In this document: positions 3,663-62,502 of the stretch, piece after piece | How the letters are laid out: the number at the start of each line of letters is the position of its first letter | Numbering within the stretch: position 1 is the first letter of the stretch | From: an uncultured Luminiphilus sp. | Lineage (GTDB): Bacteria > Pseudomonadota > Gammaproteobacteria > Pseudomonadales > Halieaceae | Direction of reading: 5' to 3' | Assembly: GCA_943787485.1 (NCBI GenBank) | Contig: CALSMP010000006.1 | Span: 1-64,000 of the forward strand | Length of the DNA stretch: 64,000 bases | Program-made: the position numbers and the translations under genes | The notes under the pieces: model-generated | Database searches by the model: none | Told to the model about the DNA's origin: nothing | The model's input: the letters and a program-made list of their open reading frames with translations, nothing else

Positions 3663-4445
3663 TTAGTTGGCCTCCGGTGCCGCAACGGGCATGTTCAGCA
3701 ATTCAATAGTGGCTTGTTTCTTGGCGATGCGTACACCCTTGCGAACCGCAGAGGCGTAGTCACCTGAGGATAAGGCTTCCCAGCTCTGGGTGCTGGTGTT
3801 CCAGGCCCCAGTCTCTGCGCCATCCTTGGTCTGGTACACCAGGGACACGCGGCCAACCCGCAGGATATCCACCTCACGGTCCACGCCGTTAACAGAAATT
3901 GTGTCGGGGTAGGACTCGATGCCGCGACCGTACTGTAGCTCGATGGAATAGAGTTCGAGAACCTGACGAAAGGCTTCGGCCGAGGTCACATCAGAACGAT
4001 CCAGATTCGAGCGCACCGCCTCGATGTTGCCCAATCGTGTGTCGAGGTCAAAGGGCATGTCGAGGTTAATAAACTGCTCGAGCCCATCGAGCATTCGACC
4101 TACCAGCGGCGGAATCTGCCGCTGAATAACCGCCGCTTCCGCAATGGAGTCGTCGATATCGGTAATTCGACGTTCCTGATTCGCGATTTGCCGCTCCAAC
4201 CGGGCGTTGTAAACCCGCAAACCGTCGACTTGCTTCATGACGGTCTTGTAGTCAGAGAGCAGATCCCGGGTCTCGTCGGCGAGTCGGTCGATCTTGGCCT
4301 GAGAGGTTTTGGCTTCAGCAGTCCGCTGTTTGCCCACGTCAAGGATATCGTCAATGGATGTGGCAGAAGACGAAGCGGCAACACCCAAGGTGCCACCAGC
4401 GACGCATGCCGCGAGCAGAACAGTTTTGAATCGATGGATGGTCAT
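3663..4445 (-). CDS. DUF3450 periplasmic coiled-coil protein of the TonB2 operon
   Basis: A 260-residue secreted protein with a signal peptide (cleavage near ASSSAT, residue 25-30). A long coiled coil follows (about 40-105, heptad-like with QVDGLRVYNARLERQIANQE), then a C-terminal domain. It belongs to DUF3450, whose genes head TonB2-type operons. A role as a periplasmic partner of the TtpC/ExbB motor is inferred from this fixed linkage; no biochemical function is established that I know of. It is the first gene of the operon and is separated by only 2 bases from the ttpC-like gene. Confidence 0.88.
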   Translation of the reverse strand: MTIHRFKTVLLAACVAGGTLGVAASSSATSIDDILDVGKQRTAEAKTSQAKIDRLADETRDLLSDYKTVMKQVDGLRVYNARLERQIANQERRITDIDDSIAEAAVIQRQIPPLVGRMLDGLEQFINLDMPFDLDTRLGNIEAVRSNLDRSDVTSAEAFRQVLELYSIELQYGRGIESYPDTISVNGVDREVDILRVGRVSLVYQTKDGAETGAWNTSTQSWEALSSGDYASAVRKGVRIAKKQATIELLNMPVAAPEAN

Positions 4446-41234: not shown

Positions 41235-42362
41235 CTACTCCACTTCAAAATCTGTATTTTCAGTAAGCCCCCCTGCACCGTGCTCGTGCAGCTTAATGTT
41301 AAGGCGCACATCATTAGCAGAATCTGCGTGGCGGAGAGCTTCGGCATGAGAAATAAGCCCCGATTTGTAAGCTTCTATGAGACCTTGATCAAACGTTTGC
41401 ATGCCCTGCTCAGTAGAGCGTGCCATGAGTTCTTTGATTAAATGTACCTCGCCTTTGCGGATATGGTCCTGAATGAGGGCGGTGCCTAAAAGTACCTCGA
41501 CAACGGCAACGCGCCCTTTACCTGTAAGAGCGGGCAGCAGTTGCTGAGCCACCAGCGCGCGCAAATTCAATGATAAGTCCATCCAAATTTGATTTTGTTG
41601 CGCCGCAGGAAAGAAGCTTTGGATGCGATCGAGCGCTTGGTTCGCATTGTTGGCGTGCAAAGTACAAAAACACAGGTGACCAGTCTCTGCGAAAGCAAGG
41701 GCGGATTCCATGGTCTTAGCGGTTCTAACCTCTCCGATCATAATCACATCGGGGGCCTGTCGCAGCGTATTGGCGAGCGCGACTTCGTAGGACTCGGTAT
41801 CAAGACCGACCTCACGCTGGGTAACAAGACAACCCTTGTGGCTGTGTACGTATTCAATGGGATCTTCCACGGTAATAATGTGGCCGCTACTGTGGGTGTT
41901 ACGGTAATCCAACATGGAGGCGAGAGAGGTTGATTTTCCAGTGCCAGTGCCGCCCACTAAGATGACAAGTCCGCGCTTGAGCATTGCCAGCTGCTTCATA
42001 ACGGGTGGCAACCCCAAGGCTATGAAATCGGGGATTTCGGCACTGATTCGACGCAACACCAATCCGGGATGGCCGCGCTGAATAAAAGCGCTCGCGCGCA
42101 TGCGCCCGTACACGGGATGGTCGATAGCGTAGTTCGCCTCGTTGCCTTGGTTGAAAGCGTTATTAATCTGCTGACTCATGGTCGCCGATATCAACTCAGT
42201 CACCTGGTGCTCGCTCAAAGGCTGATCGCCAAGCCTCATCAGCTCGCCATCGACTTTTAGCGTGATAGGAGCGCCCACGGTAACGAAGGCATCCGAGGCC
42301 TGACGCTCAACAATTGCTTTTAGCAGTTCCTCCACCAAACCCCCTATGCCATGCAATGCCAC
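41235..42362 (-). CDS. pilU: type IV pilus retraction ATPase PilU
   Basis: Accessory retraction motor of type IV pili; 375 residues. Walker A VGGTGTGKSTSLASMLDY (about 135-152), Asp box HIITVEDPIEYVHSH, Walker B VIMIGEVRTAKTMES and His box ETGHLCFCTLHANNA are all present. The C-terminal tail (beyond about 345) extends past the PilT end, typical of PilU. It lies downstream of pilT on the same strand with a 68-base gap. Confidence 0.94.
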   Translation of the reverse strand: MALHGIGGLVEELLKAIVERQASDAFVTVGAPITLKVDGELMRLGDQPLSEHQVTELISATMSQQINNAFNQGNEANYAIDHPVYGRMRASAFIQRGHPGLVLRRISAEIPDFIALGLPPVMKQLAMLKRGLVILVGGTGTGKSTSLASMLDYRNTHSSGHIITVEDPIEYVHSHKGCLVTQREVGLDTESYEVALANTLRQAPDVIMIGEVRTAKTMESALAFAETGHLCFCTLHANNANQALDRIQSFFPAAQQNQIWMDLSLNLRALVAQQLLPALTGKGRVAVVEVLLGTALIQDHIRKGEVHLIKELMARSTEQGMQTFDQGLIEAYKSGLISHAEALRHADSANDVRLNIKLHEHGAGGLTENTDFEVE

Positions 42363-42430
42363 CCGACCAGCTTAACATTCGAGCGCGTGACCCCACATCC
42401 AGTCGCCGCACCTCTGTCTGCCCCTCGCAG

Positions 42431-43468
42431 CTACCCAATGCTGTCGGGCTGTCTTGCTTTTTCTCTTGCTGTCTCAAGGGTGATCAATTTTTTCTCAAAA
42501 AGACTCTGCAAGCACTGATCCATGGTTTGCATACCGATCGACTGACCGGTCTGAATAGCCGAATACATTTGCGCAACCTTGTCTTCCCGGATCAAATTTC
42601 GAATTGCCGACGTGCCGCGCATGATCTCATGTGCGGCAATACGGCCGCCGGCGCGTCGCTTTAGTAAGGTTTGCGATATGACTGCCTGTAGGGATTCAGA
42701 AAGCATGGAGCGAACCATAGCTTTTTCCGCGGCTGGAAAGACGTCAATCACACGGTCAATCGTCTTGGCGGCTGACGTCGTATGCAAAGTGCCAAAAACC
42801 AGGTGTCCCGTCTCCGCTGCCGTCAGCGCCAACCGGATTGTTTCCAGATCACGCATCTCGCCGACAAGGATAATATCCGGGTCTTCCCGAAGCGCCGAAC
42901 GCAACGCTTCGGAAAACCCTAAAGTGTCGCGATGGACTTCCCGTTGGTTAACCAAGCAACGCTTGGACTCGTGAACAAACTCGATGGGGTCTTCGATCGT
43001 CAAAATATGGTCATAGCGGTTGTCATTAATGTAATCGATCATCGCAGCTAGGGTGGTTGATTTACCCGAACCCGTCGGGCCGGTCACCAAGACTAGCCCT
43101 CTCGGCAATAAAGAAACGTCGCGAAAAACCTGCCCCATGCCCAGATCGTCCATCGTGAGGACTTTCGATGGAATGGTTCGAAACACCGCCGCAGCGCCCC
43201 GGTTCTGGTTGAATGCGTTGACCCGAAATCGAGCGACACCCGGCACTTCAAACGAAAAGTCGGTCTCAAAAAATTCTTCGAAGTCCTTGCGCTGCTTGTC
43301 GTTCATGATGTCGTAAATCAGGTCATGAACTTGTGCGTGGTCGAGGGGCGGCACGTTGATACGGCGGACATCCCCATCCACGCGAATCATCGGGGGTAAG
43401 CCCGCTGACAAGTGCAGGTCGGAAGCGCCTTGTTTCGCGCTGAATGCTAATAGTTCTGTGATATCCAT
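42431..43468 (-). CDS. pilT: type IV pilus retraction ATPase PilT
   Basis: Hexameric ATPase that depolymerises type IV pili for twitching motility and DNA uptake; 345 residues. ATG 43468 has an AAGGAAG site and starts MDITELLAFSAKQGASDLHL as in the family. Walker A VTGPTGSGKSTTLAAM, Asp box ILTIEDPIEFVHES, Walker B IILVGEMRDLETIR and His box ETGHLVFGTLHTTSA are intact, followed by the AIRNLIRE segment involved in retraction. Divergent from yggS. Confidence 0.96.
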   Translation of the reverse strand: MDITELLAFSAKQGASDLHLSAGLPPMIRVDGDVRRINVPPLDHAQVHDLIYDIMNDKQRKDFEEFFETDFSFEVPGVARFRVNAFNQNRGAAAVFRTIPSKVLTMDDLGMGQVFRDVSLLPRGLVLVTGPTGSGKSTTLAAMIDYINDNRYDHILTIEDPIEFVHESKRCLVNQREVHRDTLGFSEALRSALREDPDIILVGEMRDLETIRLALTAAETGHLVFGTLHTTSAAKTIDRVIDVFPAAEKAMVRSMLSESLQAVISQTLLKRRAGGRIAAHEIMRGTSAIRNLIREDKVAQMYSAIQTGQSIGMQTMDQCLQSLFEKKLITLETAREKARQPDSIG

Positions 43469-43526
43469 GGATTTCTTCCTTGATAAGCCAAAGACCAAAC
43501 TAGCCCACCTCGGCTATCATGGCACC

Positions 43527-57149: not shown

Positions 57150-57836
57150 TCAGCGGCGAGGCATATTGCCCGTTTCAGCCATCGAAAAACACTGCCCGTG
57201 GCCGACAATCAGATGGTCGAGCAAGGTCACATCAATCAACTGCAGGGCCGCCGCCAAGCGCTGAGTAATGCTGTGATCGGCCAGGCTGGGCTGCGGGTGC
57301 CCCGAGGGGTGGTTATGCACCGCTATTACCGCCGCCGCTCCAGCCCTGAGGGCCGCCGTGACAACTTCTCGCGGGTAGACAGCCGCGCCATCCAAGGTGC
57401 CCACGAACAGGCAGTCGGTTCGCAGTAGGCGATGACGGCTATCGAGCAACAAACAAGCAAAATGCTCGCGATCCTCCATGGCATATTGACTGCAAAGGAA
57501 GCGTTTGGTCAGTCGAGAGCTTGCTAAAACGGGGCCTTGATGCAGGTCTTTCGCGGCCACCACCCGAATAAGCTCCAGAGTGGCCTGCAGCTGTTTGCGC
57601 ACCCCAGGACCGACGCCGGGAACATGGACATCCCCAGCCAGTATGGCCTTTAAGGTCGACCGCAGACACCATCGGTGTGCGCTGAAACCCTTGAGGAGAG
57701 CGTCTGATGCCCGAGGATTGTGTGTTCCCAAAGCCCGCGCCACCAGCGCTAGCGCGTCCCAATCGGGCTCTGGTGGGCCTATGCGCGCGGCCCGTCCACC
57801 CTGATCGGTATCAGTCCCATGGATTTCAGTGTCCAA
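57150..57836 (-). CDS. radC: RadC/DUF2466 (JAMM-domain) family protein
   Basis: A 228-residue protein with a helix-hairpin-helix-like region (about 68-85, [13 protein letters not shown]) and a C-terminal JAMM metal-site domain: [20 protein letters not shown] (about 168-187). The usual RadC N-terminus (PREKLL..GA..LSDAELLA) is not recognisable; it is replaced by a diverged stretch [20 protein letters not shown]. The apparent start is TTG 57836, with no better alternative. RadC's role is unresolved; a DNA repair role has been withdrawn for E. coli. Divergent from coaBC. Confidence 0.88.
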
Positions 57837-57888
57837 AATAACGTCCAGATGCTACCTTCTGCAGAATTTTCTCAGTTGTATCAACACG

Positions 57889-59124
57889 ATGGGACACCTA
57901 AGTAACCGAAATATCATCATTGGCGTATCAGGAGGCATCGCAGCCTACAAGGCTGCTGAGCTTGTGCGCCTGCTCCGGCGGGAAGGAGCCATCGTCCGCG
58001 TCATCATGTCTCGGGGCGCGCTGGCCTTTATTACGCCCCTGAGCATGCAAGCCCTGTCTGGCAACCCGGTGCACACGGAGCTCCTTGATGAAGACGCTGA
58101 AATGGGTATGGGGCACATCGAGCTGGCCCGCTGGGCAGATATGCTCATACTGGCTCCAGCGACCGCCGACGTGATTGCCCGACTTGCCCAGGGTCGCGCC
58201 GACGACTTGCTAACCACAGTTGCCCTCGCGACCACTGCACCCCTCTATGTAGCACCCGCGATGAACCAAAATATGTGGCTCAACCCGGCCACGGCTACCA
58301 ATATAGCTACGCTTACAGAGCGAGGTATTACGGTTGTTGGGCCCATTGCTGGGGATCAAGCCTGCGGCGATAACGGGCCCGGGCGGCTGCTGGAACCCGT
58401 CGAAATGCTTGCCGCCATCACCAATCGATTGCCCGCAAGACCGCTAGGGGGTAAGCGGGTGGTCATTACTGCCGGACCTACCCGGGAGGCGCTCGACCCT
58501 GTGCGCTACCTATCCAATCACAGCTCGGGAAAAATGGGGTTTGCTTTGGCAGGCGCTGCCGCCGAGGCAGGCGCCGAAGTCGTGTTAATTACAGGGCCAG
58601 TGGCACTTGAATCGCCCGATCACATTTCACGCGTTGACGTTGAGTCAGCCCAAGAGATGCTTGCCGCCGTCATGGACGCGGTTTCATCGGGCACCGATAT
58701 CTTTATCGCCGCCGCGGCAGTCGCTGACTATCGGCCGATTTCCGTCGAAGCACAAAAGATCAAAAAAACTGAAAGTGAGCTGTCTCTGGCACTGGTGCGC
58801 AACCCAGACATCCTCAAAACAGTTGCTAACGCGACTAACCGACCGCCCCTCGTGATTGGATTTGCCGCCGAAACCCACCAGGTCGCCCAGCACGCGAACC
58901 TGAAGCTGGTGACAAAAAGCCTTGACGCTATAGTCGCAAACGACGTCTCGAGAAGCGATATCGGCTTCAACAGTGACTATAACGCCGTCGCACTGTTTAC
59001 TGCATTAGGCAGCGAGATTACTCTGGAAGGCTCTAAGCGGGTAGTCGCGGAGTCGCTGATCGCGGCATTTACCGAGATGCTTGAAAGCAAGGCAACAAAC
59101 ATCATGGGTACTACCAATGGCTAA
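57889..59124 (+). CDS. coaBC: bifunctional phosphopantothenoylcysteine decarboxylase / phosphopantothenate-cysteine ligase
   Basis: Two consecutive steps of coenzyme A synthesis. From ATG 57889, 411 residues. The N-terminal FMN-dependent decarboxylase half has IIIGVSGGIAAYKAAELVRL, APATADVIARLAQGRADDLL and PAMNQNMWLNPAT, with the ACGDNGPGRL Cys. The C-terminal ligase half has VVITAGPTREALDPVRYLSN and AAAVADYRP, ending in a KAT region. It overlaps the next gene by 8 bases. dut, which usually follows, is absent. Confidence 0.95.
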   Translation: MGHLSNRNIIIGVSGGIAAYKAAELVRLLRREGAIVRVIMSRGALAFITPLSMQALSGNPVHTELLDEDAEMGMGHIELARWADMLILAPATADVIARLAQGRADDLLTTVALATTAPLYVAPAMNQNMWLNPATATNIATLTERGITVVGPIAGDQACGDNGPGRLLEPVEMLAAITNRLPARPLGGKRVVITAGPTREALDPVRYLSNHSSGKMGFALAGAAAEAGAEVVLITGPVALESPDHISRVDVESAQEMLAAVMDAVSSGTDIFIAAAAVADYRPISVEAQKIKKTESELSLALVRNPDILKTVANATNRPPLVIGFAAETHQVAQHANLKLVTKSLDAIVANDVSRSDIGFNSDYNAVALFTALGSEITLEGSKRVVAESLIAAFTEMLESKATNIMGTTNG

Positions 59125-61558
59125 ACAACCTACCCTCCGCATCGGCAGGAACCAGCTTCAGCGCGTCATAGTGCAAGCCACAGTCGTTGCGGGTTCGGGG
59201 TTACTGGTTGCCTTCTTTTTGCTCGCTGCGATCAGGGAGCCGGTAGCGCTTGAGGAGAGCGAGAAACAGCTCTCGCAAGTTGCAGTCAATGGTCGCGCCC
59301 ATGTCATTTCCCTCTACATGAGTGATCTCGAGCAGCGTGTCGAGCAGTTCGCCGGCTCTTTGCCGCCTTACTCAGCGGCCGCGGAACTCGTTCCAGAGAC
59401 GGTTGGCTTCCCGGATGCAGCTTCGGTGTCTTACATCCCGCTGGGTGACCTGGGAACGGTTAAAATTACACCGGGGGACCACGGCCTCAAATCACACATT
59501 GATATCGATATTGTCCGTCGGGCATTCGCGGGTGAACAACCTGTCCCTGAATTTATTAGCATAAATGGCAACGCTTATACCTTACTTGCTAGAGGCGCCG
59601 GCGATCCGATTCATGGCGTTGTCCTACTCGAAATGACTCAGTCCCGCCTTGCTGAGCTCGCGTCGCCATCAAATGAGGGTCTCTACCGGCTCGTGCAAAG
59701 ACAACAAAACGGTGCCGTTTTTACGATAGTGGGCGAGCTTAAAGGCGAGGTTGTCGCCACGGCACCGATAGCAGGGAGCCTTTGGTCGCTTGAGTTTCAG
59801 CCAAACAAAAATTGGCTTGCGATGATTCAGCCCGGGTGGTCGTCGCTGGTGAGCGCCTTTATTATTGCGGTTGCAGCCCTCCTGCTCGCGGCCTACTGGC
59901 TGCTTAAAGAGGCGCCACTGACACTTGTGAGAGAGGTTGCAAGCGTATTGACCAAATTGGATGCAGAAGACTCGATCATCATCAACACGCCCGCCCTAAA
60001 ACCCCTCGTCAATGCACTTCTGCTGGCCAAACAGCGATTATCTGCTCCCACTCAGGCTGGGGCAAACCCCAATGTCGCCGGCCAAGAGCCGAGCTCTGAT
60101 CCATCACCCCACTCAGAAGAAGTGCAGGCAAATCTGGCCGAGGCACAGCCACCCAGTGACAAAATAACCTCACCCGAGACGGCGGATGTCGCGGCAGCGC
60201 AGCACGATAGTCTCCAGCTCCTCTTTGAGGACAGCCGCATACGAGGTGCCGTTGACACCGATCTAAATCCCAGAATGGTAGAGCAAATTGGTCAGGCGAT
60301 AGCCGTTGTTTGTCGTGACAAGGGTGCCAGCTCTTTGGTGGTAGCCTCAGATGGCATGCCCGGCAGTGAGCAGATTCGGGCCCCTCTTATTAAGTCGCTA
60401 TTGGCGAGCGGTGTTGATGTCCTAGACATCGAGTCGGCATCCATGCCGTTGCTGAGATTTGCGACTCACAGTATGGATTCAACATCCGGCGTCATGATCA
60501 CTAGCGACCTCCATGACCCGCGCGTTGTAGCTCTTGAGCTACTACTCGATCGACAGCTTGCCAGTGGAGAGAGCCTCGAGCAGATCCTGACAGCCCTGCG
60601 CGCGGGGTCGCGTGTGTCCGGCGCCGGCCGAGCCGCCAAGCAGGCCATTGTCCCTCGGTATATAGATCATGTGCTCGGCGAAATAACTCTGGCGCTGCCG
60701 CTTAAGGTAGTCATCAACGTATCACATGGTGCGACAGGCGCCGCCGCGATATCTCTGATTGAGTCGCTGGGTTGTGAAGTCGTGAAGGTCAATGATGAGC
60801 GCGACGACGACGCCCAACCCCTTGAATACGCGCTGTCACAGCTTGGCAGAGTGGTTGCTGAAACTCGCGCCGATGCCGGTCTACTGATCGATCAAGCTGG
60901 TGACCGGCTTCACGCAGTGACCAACGAGGGGATTCCTGTTGCTACCGATCAACTCATGATGATTCTGGCTCAGGACATCTTGGAGAGAAACCCCGGGGCA
61001 GACATAGTCTATGACGTTAACTTCAGTCGACATTTCGCGCCCTTTATTACCCGGTGCGGCGGTCGGGCTCAAATGTCGCGGAGTGGTCTGGTGTTTGTTG
61101 CCGAGAAGAGCCTTCAGTCCCGCGCGCTGATCGCCGCCACTTTTTCGGGTCATATTTTATACGCTGAACGCTGGTACGGTTTTGCAGACGCGCTCTATGC
61201 GACCGCACGGCTTCTGGAGGTTCTATCTAGCCAATCTGAAAGCTTTCAAGAGCGTATATCCCAACTGCCGCAAGCCGTCAGCACGCCAGAGTTTTTGTTG
61301 CCGCTCGATACAGAGGCGCGAAAAAGAGTCATGCGTAGCCTGCTAGGCCACCCTGATTTTCCAGGCGCAAGAGTTACCACCCTAGACGGCTTGCGTCTCG
61401 ATTATGCAGACGGATGGGGTGTTATTCGTAACTCAATCCCTGACGGCGCCTTGGCCATTAGATTAGAGGGCAATGACAGCGCGTCCTTGTCACGAATAAA
61501 AGCCGTGCTACAGAAAGCGCTGTCAGAGGCAGCGCCCGAATTGACAATACCCCTTTAA
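59117..61558 (+). CDS. membrane-anchored AlgC/PMM-like protein with degenerate active site (probable pseudoenzyme)
   Basis: An 813-residue protein from ATG 59117, in the algC position. Residues 1-16 are basic; a helix at about 18-40 and another at about 244-264 flank a periplasmic sensor-like domain (about 45-235). A low-complexity linker (about 305-360) leads to a phosphomannomutase-like region (about 365-813). Fold-level similarity to AlgC is plain (ERNPGADIVYDV, HILYAERWYGFADALYATAR, TTLDGLRLDYADGWGVIRNS). But the phosphoserine loop TGSHNP is SDLHDP (463-468), the metal loop DGDGDR is DQAGDR (592-597), the KTGHS loop is SRSGL (654-658), the sugar loop GEMSGH is ATFSGH (674-679) and the phosphate loop RASNTTP is RNSIPDG (771-777). 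Enzymatic activity is therefore unlikely. Pseudomonas has a related long AlgC that remains catalytic. Confidence 0.87.
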   Translation: MAKQPTLRIGRNQLQRVIVQATVVAGSGLLVAFFLLAAIREPVALEESEKQLSQVAVNGRAHVISLYMSDLEQRVEQFAGSLPPYSAAAELVPETVGFPDAASVSYIPLGDLGTVKITPGDHGLKSHIDIDIVRRAFAGEQPVPEFISINGNAYTLLARGAGDPIHGVVLLEMTQSRLAELASPSNEGLYRLVQRQQNGAVFTIVGELKGEVVATAPIAGSLWSLEFQPNKNWLAMIQPGWSSLVSAFIIAVAALLLAAYWLLKEAPLTLVREVASVLTKLDAEDSIIINTPALKPLVNALLLAKQRLSAPTQAGANPNVAGQEPSSDPSPHSEEVQANLAEAQPPSDKITSPETADVAAAQHDSLQLLFEDSRIRGAVDTDLNPRMVEQIGQAIAVVCRDKGASSLVVASDGMPGSEQIRAPLIKSLLASGVDVLDIESASMPLLRFATHSMDSTSGVMITSDLHDPRVVALELLLDRQLASGESLEQILTALRAGSRVSGAGRAAKQAIVPRYIDHVLGEITLALPLKVVINVSHGATGAAAISLIESLGCEVVKVNDERDDDAQPLEYALSQLGRVVAETRADAGLLIDQAGDRLHAVTNEGIPVATDQLMMILAQDILERNPGADIVYDVNFSRHFAPFITRCGGRAQMSRSGLVFVAEKSLQSRALIAATFSGHILYAERWYGFADALYATARLLEVLSSQSESFQERISQLPQAVSTPEFLLPLDTEARKRVMRSLLGHPDFPGARVTTLDGLRLDYADGWGVIRNSIPDGALAIRLEGNDSASLSRIKAVLQKALSEAAPELTIPL

Positions 61559-61611: not shown

Positions 61612-62502
<891 letters not shown>

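Follow-up and report, generated by a model that had tools for sequence, protein, structure and literature searches.

A sensor-tethered phosphomannomutase homologue with degenerate catalytic loops in Luminiphilus

What can a phosphomannomutase homologue still do for the cell when its active site is gone? This question is raised by a gene of an uncultured Luminiphilus sp. (Halieaceae), a member of a marine genus. We analysed a stretch of 64,000 nucleotides of its genome (assembly GCA_943787485.1, contig CALSMP010000006.1, positions 1 to 64,000), which is called the window here. An open reading frame (ORF) on the forward strand of the window, 59117-61558, starts with ATG and encodes 813 amino acids (aa). 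It lies between coaBC and argB, in the conserved algC slot, where an earlier note made from the sequence alone had placed it. The note described a membrane-tethered homologue of phosphomannomutase/phosphoglucomutase (PMM/PGM) whose catalysis was lost selectively. Our own reading, to which we give a probability of roughly 0.55, is that the gene is the Luminiphilus orthologue of membrane-bound AlgC, which has lost catalysis and kept a non-catalytic conformational or partner-binding output.

Active site and domain architecture of the window protein

All five catalytic signatures of the enzyme family and the GRDGR motif are altered in the window protein, and the loops read as the note had claimed: TSDLHDP, DQAGDR, SRSGL, ATFSGH, RNSIPDG and, for GRDGR, ASDGM. 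In the HMMER alignment, the catalytic Ser108 of the Pseudomonas aeruginosa enzyme falls on Asp464 and not on Ser463. The claimed loss of the phosphoserine thus stands with a corrected residue, and the loop that reads T(G/A)SHNP in active enzymes carries Asp at the catalytic site here. Of the three metal-binding Asp residues of DGDGDR, the middle one (D244) is gone, as described. The sugar-binding loop GEMSGH and the phosphate-binding loop RxSNT are replaced by ATFSGH and RNSIP. The protein keeps 8 of 19 catalytic or ligand-binding positions, in P. aeruginosa PMM/PGM numbering R20, D242, D246, R247, S327, H329, R421 and S423. Judged by sequence only, the active PMM domain of a membrane-bound AlgC is missing here.

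The fold of the enzyme is predicted to be preserved. Pfam domains I, II and III of PGM_PMM score above the cut-off and domain IV is not matched; the first 365 residues match no Pfam family. Using phmmer, residues 369-812 were aligned with nearly the entire P. aeruginosa PMM/PGM (best E 4.6e-76). The full-length AlphaFold2 model, built from a 44-row alignment, has a mean predicted local distance difference test score (pLDDT) of 87, with residues 310-357 below 50, and a separate model of residues 1-310 has a mean of 91. The mutase part of the model matches P. aeruginosa PMM/PGM with a Foldseek TM-score of 0.92, normalised to the target, and has the four-domain fold of the alpha-D-phosphohexomutase superfamily. 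In the models, two helices of transmembrane (TM) length flank a confidently predicted periplasmic fold. At the N-terminus the full-length model has a single helix 4-81, and the N-terminal model a helix 13-39. The best solved Foldseek matches of residues 1-310 are the chemoreceptor model 9a65 and the sensor domains of KinD (E 8e-6), CtaA, Mlp37 and PctA (E up to 3e-4), all of which we take to be Cache-type domains. These matches are moderate, with TM-scores of about 0.3-0.5 by query and 0.4-0.6 by target and a root-mean-square deviation of mostly 5-7 A. On these models, the periplasmic domain resembles a Cache sensor, and the two TM segments around it are arranged as in membrane-bound AlgC. AlphaFold2, Foldseek and phmmer agree with the order given by the note: two membrane helices around a sensor-like domain, then a full-length PMM/PGM-like region.

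Loop degeneration and selection in the genus

We compared the window protein with its relatives. Full-length homologues were found in 18 of the 57 Luminiphilus genomes, about one third of the sampled species. Their loops are degenerate in 18 of 18 (L004-L021, the window protein being L004); we call them dead copies. All 18 frames are open over the match, one of them (L012) being cut by the contig end. The dead copies keep between 2 and 12 of the 19 catalytic or ligand positions: 10-12 in L005-L010, 7 in L011 and L014, 3 in L013, 2-3 in L015-L021, and 8 of the 15 that are covered in L012. The phosphoserine column holds a residue other than Ser in 17 of 18: the window protein has Asp there, and the rest have Gly, Ala, Asp, Leu or Gln. 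L017 does have a Ser in this column, but the surrounding loop no longer matches.

Outside the genus the picture is different. A family search matched 81 of 100 genomes at E 1e-25, 69 of them outside Luminiphilus. The homologues of 44 of these 69 were examined: all 44 have the serine, and each of the 19 positions is kept in 43 or 44. A search of named genomes gave the serine in 71 of the best 80 of 363 loci. The nine without it were six Luminiphilus records, HTCC2080 and two Halieaceae bacterium records, and the last three match members of the genus. TGSH is present in 28 of 28 further loci from an order search (best-scoring rows, with some Halieaceae counted before); the family, named-genome and order sets overlap. 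Slight departures in the loops (DGDADR or SHHP) occur in 6 of the 71 serine-bearing named loci and in 6 of the 28 order-search loci. The 18 dead copies form a monophyletic group (support 96) on a tree of mutase domains that also includes 44 intact sequences and 7 from the outgroup. No close relative with intact loops was found in Luminiphilus (57 genomes, 11 of them uninformative). Degenerate loops occur in every homologue of the genus and the serine in 44 of 44 outside it, which makes an isolated error or chance an unlikely cause of the loop loss in the window protein; we rejected a sequence error or a recent single loss.

Two further observations were made. The tethered AlgC L069 (genome G061), from another Halieaceae genus, keeps the serine and has the softened loops GSHCP, DGDADR, SRTGH and AEFSGH; it is possibly an early stage of the same catalytic loss. 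The AlgC frames L058 and L059 (G058 and G057), of 1010 and 1027 aa, are longer than most examined and have GSHND in place of GSHNP.

To describe where residues were lost, we used 148 mutase columns that are at least 95% identical in intact proteins, gaps being set aside. The window protein keeps 19 of 41 loop columns versus 69 of 104 other columns (p 0.04). In L005-L015, 255 of 446 loop cells are kept versus 807 of 1127 others (p 7e-8), and in L016-L021, 37 of 240 versus 293 of 608 (p 5e-20); these p-values flatter, because cells from related sequences are not independent. In these alignments, residue loss is concentrated in the catalytic loops. We also determined the ratio of nonsynonymous to synonymous substitution rates (dN/dS) by the pairwise NG86 method in 28 hand-chosen pairs (15 dead, 13 intact). 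The synonymous rate (dS) of the mutase part is undefined in 7 of the 15 dead pairs. In the two least saturated dead pairs, the PMM dN/dS is 0.115 (L018/L019, dS 0.29) and 0.032 (L009/L010, dS 0.53), and that of the N-terminal part is higher in both, 0.185 and 0.125. Intact pairs give 0.03 to 0.22 for the mutase part. Thus the PMM ratio is far below 1 in the measurable pairs, all of which are sister lineages of the window copy. The note's view of selective catalytic loss under continued selection is thereby supported for the clade. A neutral pseudogene was judged unlikely, as frames are open and dN/dS is low.

Role of the dead copies, gene loss and rival explanations

The window genome (89.7% complete) contains three places that match PGM_PMM_I: GlmM, a CpsG-type PMM and the pseudo-AlgC. 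The motifs of GlmM and of the CpsG-type PMM are intact, and no further mutase-family gene was found in this genome. The CpsG-type gene adjoins genes that resemble mannose-1-phosphate guanylyltransferase and GalU (names read from the sequence). A CpsG-type match at E 1e-60 is present in 95 of 100 family genomes; therefore, a substitute was probably present when AlgC lost its catalysis.

These data may be put together as follows. The ancestor would have had a Cache-like sensor in the periplasm, linked across the membrane to a PMM/PGM in the cytoplasm. Its catalysis would have become redundant, other mutases being intact. By parsimony, if no intact copy exists in the genus, a single loss of catalysis at its base came before the gene deletions described below. 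The four-domain cytoplasmic fold would then act as a non-catalytic output of the sensor, through its conformation or a bound partner. Such a moonlighting output may have been present already in the active ancestor, comparable to GlmM inhibiting CdaA. We prefer a partner-binding output because the nucleophile and many ligand residues are gone and the fold is under purifying selection where this is measurable. That the gene is kept in about one third of the sampled species suggests a job other than catalysis. More tentatively, and at somewhat less than even odds, we propose that the dead copies are transmembrane receptors with a dead phosphohexomutase output, which signal by partner binding, evolved by catalytic loss from a sensor-tethered enzyme and reveal a second, non-catalytic output of membrane-bound AlgC in general.

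The gene has also been lost in many species. We collected 30 coaBC-argB slots from the genus, 29 from genomes without a full-length match and one (L137) from a second contig of G028; one slot shows argB only. Among the 29 informative slots the gene is missing in 28, and G001 holds an in-frame fusion of its two ends. In this genome (L134, 4133-4522), the ORF that remains after an in-frame internal deletion has 130 aa from stop to stop and contains both ends of the pseudo-mutase; 2019 nt are missing by blastn coordinates. L133 and L137 have a common scar, in which some 150 nt of the 3' end survive. Their breakpoints are the same, yet they are not sisters on the genus tree, which was built from the gene's own neighbours, coaBC and argB (47 genus leaves and 11 others). 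G028, with two versions of the slot, may be a mixed genome, and many genomes are incomplete; 11 of the 57 have neither a full-length match nor an informative slot. The gene has been deleted repeatedly and is therefore dispensable in some settings. Beside the dead copy L013 of G006 (listed as 98% complete), argB is a short N-terminal remnant directly after the pseudo-mutase (3869-4105), and no other argB was found in this genome at E 1e-40. G006 is a possible arginine auxotroph.

We assessed whether the dead gene goes together with surface structures. Of the 57 genomes of the genus, 7 have the polysaccharide export family PF02563: five are among the 18 that carry the dead gene, one has an empty slot and one an undetermined slot. 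It was not found in the window's own genome. By hand tally, a PilT-family match over the cut-off is present in all 18 genomes that carry the dead gene, in 19 of the 27 whose slot is empty and in the one with a remnant. This family includes paralogues, and 6 of the 8 genomes without a match fall in one coaBC+argB clade. For PilO the hand tally is 13 of 18, 13 of 27 and 0 of 1. The PilT and PilO tallies are raw counts, uncorrected for completeness or shared descent. Since PilT is present in 19 of 27 genomes without the gene, pili persist in many species that lack it, and a one-way link between pili and the dead gene is possible. In the window, two tandem PilT-family ATPases (PilT- and PilU-like) are encoded on the reverse strand at 41235-43498, some 16 kb upstream of the pseudo-AlgC gene. 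Other contigs of the genus show a similar spacing, e.g., G003:C23, G056:C1 and G007:C27.

Several observations weigh against a retained non-catalytic output. The branch of the window protein has no dN/dS estimate, dS being undefined for both of its pairs (L004/L005 and L004/L014), and is long (0.997 on the mutase-domain tree). For these reasons purifying selection on the window copy itself is inferred from its open frame and from the clade. The dead copies evolve faster, with a mean root-to-tip distance of 2.55 versus 1.23. Absences of the gene fall in at least five places on the coaBC+argB tree, and G046, the sister of the window species and its nearest relative by argB, has lost it. Each of the periplasmic residues N126, E129, Y147 and S156 occurs in 40-41 of 41 intact domains, and none of them is kept in any of the 18 dead copies. 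The original signal may therefore no longer be read, and an unchanged sensing role is disfavoured; the signal of the periplasmic domain or its coupling may have changed. Strict association of the dead gene with polysaccharide export or type IV pili was not observed, the link with pili being loose, and our analysis found no partner, ligand or phenotype.

It is possible, though fairly unlikely, that the pseudo-mutase still senses a ligand. It would bind a sugar phosphate without turnover and convey its concentration to either the membrane part or a partner, in the way that inactive PGM5 has intact substrate binding (PMC7761743, in excerpt). Consistent with this, R421, S423, R247, D242 and D246 are kept in the window protein. 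L005-L010 keep D242, D244, D246, R247, H329, lysine 118, Ser423 and Thr425, and so does L012 up to the contig end, which cuts the last loop. However, E325, the sugar-binding Glu, is altered in all dead copies but one and His308 in all 18, and L016-L021 retain two or three of the 19 positions, though their domain outside the loops is still conserved.

An unlikely explanation is that the gene is a relic, whose use was lost along with catalysis and which is drifting to deletion. The deletions, some of them recent and with scars, the longer branches of the dead copies, including that of the window protein, and the loss of conserved sensor residues would all be expected of it. The low PMM dN/dS of the two least saturated dead pairs does not agree with drift, and neither do the 18 open frames, the preferential loss of loops and the residues that are invariant across the 18 aligned dead copies.

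It is quite improbable that the membrane sensor part alone matters and that the mutase fold is a folded module for dimerisation or stability. At equal PMM identity, the N-terminal parts of dead pairs resemble each other more than those of intact pairs do in four of the five bins with data from both groups (the pairs are not independent): 0.37 versus 0.26 at a PMM identity of 0.4-0.5, and 0.39 versus 0.29, 0.56 versus 0.50 and 0.76 versus 0.65 in three others. In the 0.9-1.0 bin there is no such shift (0.83 dead, 0.88 intact), which is a further point against our reading. The 18 aligned dead copies all share nine N-terminal residues (L109, G113, P119, G123, D131, R134, E145, V168 and Q194). We read the comparison by identity bin as a sign that constraint may have moved toward the sensor part in dead copies. 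But the PMM part has the lower dN/dS in both least saturated dead pairs, and a copy missing the mutase part alone occurs in 0 of the 29 informative slots.

It is highly improbable that the protein is still an enzyme, with altered chemistry. The metal loop, Arg20, His109 and Lys118 are all kept in L005-L010 and L012, but 17 of 18 copies have another residue as the nucleophile, which is doubtful in L017, and metal ligands are also lost in L004, L011 and L013-L021.

Table 1. Pseudo-AlgC gene of the window, its predicted parts and its neighbours
Feature	Coordinates	Strand	Evidence
Pseudo-AlgC gene, 813 aa, putative membrane-tethered pseudo-phosphohexomutase	59117..61558	+	ORF, Pfam, phmmer
Predicted first TM helix, residues 13-39	59153..59233	+	AlphaFold2 N-terminal model
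Predicted periplasmic Cache-like domain and leading helix, residues 42-237	59240..59827	+	AlphaFold2 N-terminal model, Foldseek
Predicted second TM helix extending into the cytoplasm, residues 241-283	59837..59965	+	AlphaFold2 N-terminal model
Predicted juxtamembrane helix (292-309), then a disordered linker up to the PMM domain, residues 284-367	59966..60217	+	AlphaFold2 models
PMM/PGM-like region, residues 369-812	60221..61552	+	phmmer alignment, Foldseek TM-score 0.92
Ex-phosphoserine loop TSDLHDP (Ser108 position = Asp464)	60500..60520	+	sequence, alignment
Ex-metal loop DQAGDR (D244 lost)	60890..60907	+	sequence, alignment
Ex-KTGHS loop SRSGL (H308 lost)	61076..61090	+	sequence, alignment
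Ex-sugar-binding loop ATFSGH (E325 lost)	61136..61153	+	sequence, alignment
Ex-phosphate-binding loop RNSIPDG (N424, T425 lost; R421, S423 kept)	61427..61447	+	sequence, alignment
coaBC, upstream neighbour, 8-nt overlap with the pseudo-AlgC start	57829..59124	+	ORF
argB, downstream neighbour	61618..62502	+	ORF

Comparison with known systems

Membrane-bound AlgC is said to have two TM segments and a dCACHE periplasmic domain, to be encoded in coaBC-dut-algC clusters and to be needed for twitching in Lysobacter enzymogenes. The window protein shares its architecture as a membrane-bound PMM. Membrane-bound AlgC is reportedly active or presumed active, whereas the window protein lacks the phosphoserine and most ligand residues, and its slot has no dut motif. 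In a simple motif scan of the coaBC-algC region, dut was found in none of 5 Luminiphilus loci and none of 8 other Halieaceae-type loci, and in 4 of the 19 loci scanned (L207, L208, L213 and L214). By the same scan, algC has a dut motif close to it in the loci of Nitrococcus, Sedimenticola, Halopseudomonas and Aquisalimonas. A search of the order with the dead-clade profile gave matches at E 1e-60 or better in 239 of 293 genomes; among the matches listed, all but 22 (hand count) lie in frames of at least 778 aa. Judged by frame length, the long form of AlgC is common in the order. Membrane-bound AlgC of Gammaproteobacteria has already been published (Qian, Fei and Galperin 2019, Environ Microbiol 21:3969, PMC6773520, as cited in an excerpt of PMC9537760). 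Tethering as such was therefore rejected as a novelty, and of the "new kind of sensor" proposed in the note, the tethered sensor-PMM architecture does not hold as new.

No bacterial pseudo-phosphohexomutase was found in partial listings of the open-licence literature on pseudo-mutases or Luminiphilus. PMC8694187 does not mention AlgC, and the passages of PMC8545117 that do are of no relevance here. What is new here, as far as sequences tell, is a bacterial clade of pseudo-mutases in which the receptor scaffold is kept and the chemistry is lost. The dead copies of Luminiphilus would be a natural separation-of-function experiment on a sensor-tethered mutase. They give a way to ask whether the membrane-bound AlgC so common in the order does more than make sugar phosphates. 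HTCC2080 is a cultured strain, so that this question is open to experiment.

The AlgC PMM/PGM of P. aeruginosa (1k35; S108A, 1k2y; S108D, 2fkm) is like the mutase part of the window protein in fold and in alignment along its full length, and unlike it in catalytic and ligand residues, of which 11 of 19 have changed in the window protein. PGM5 (aciculin) of vertebrates is an inactive member of the same superfamily kept for a non-catalytic role, according to excerpts of PMC7761743 and PMC5570346. Unlike the window protein, which has lost the serine and most ligand residues, PGM5 has kept the phosphoserine and substrate-binding loops; a duplication origin is suggested for it, and the excerpts describe no sensor tether. 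GlmM binds and inhibits the membrane cyclase CdaA (PMC8573169, in excerpt), and the GlmM chains of GlmM-CdaA complexes (7olh, 7ojs and 9g69) match the window model in Foldseek. GlmM is a separate and active protein, whereas the window protein is tethered and has no known cyclase partner. Thus, to the extent of these excerpts, PGM5 indicates that members of the superfamily can survive without activity, and GlmM-CdaA that a phosphohexomutase fold can regulate a membrane enzyme.

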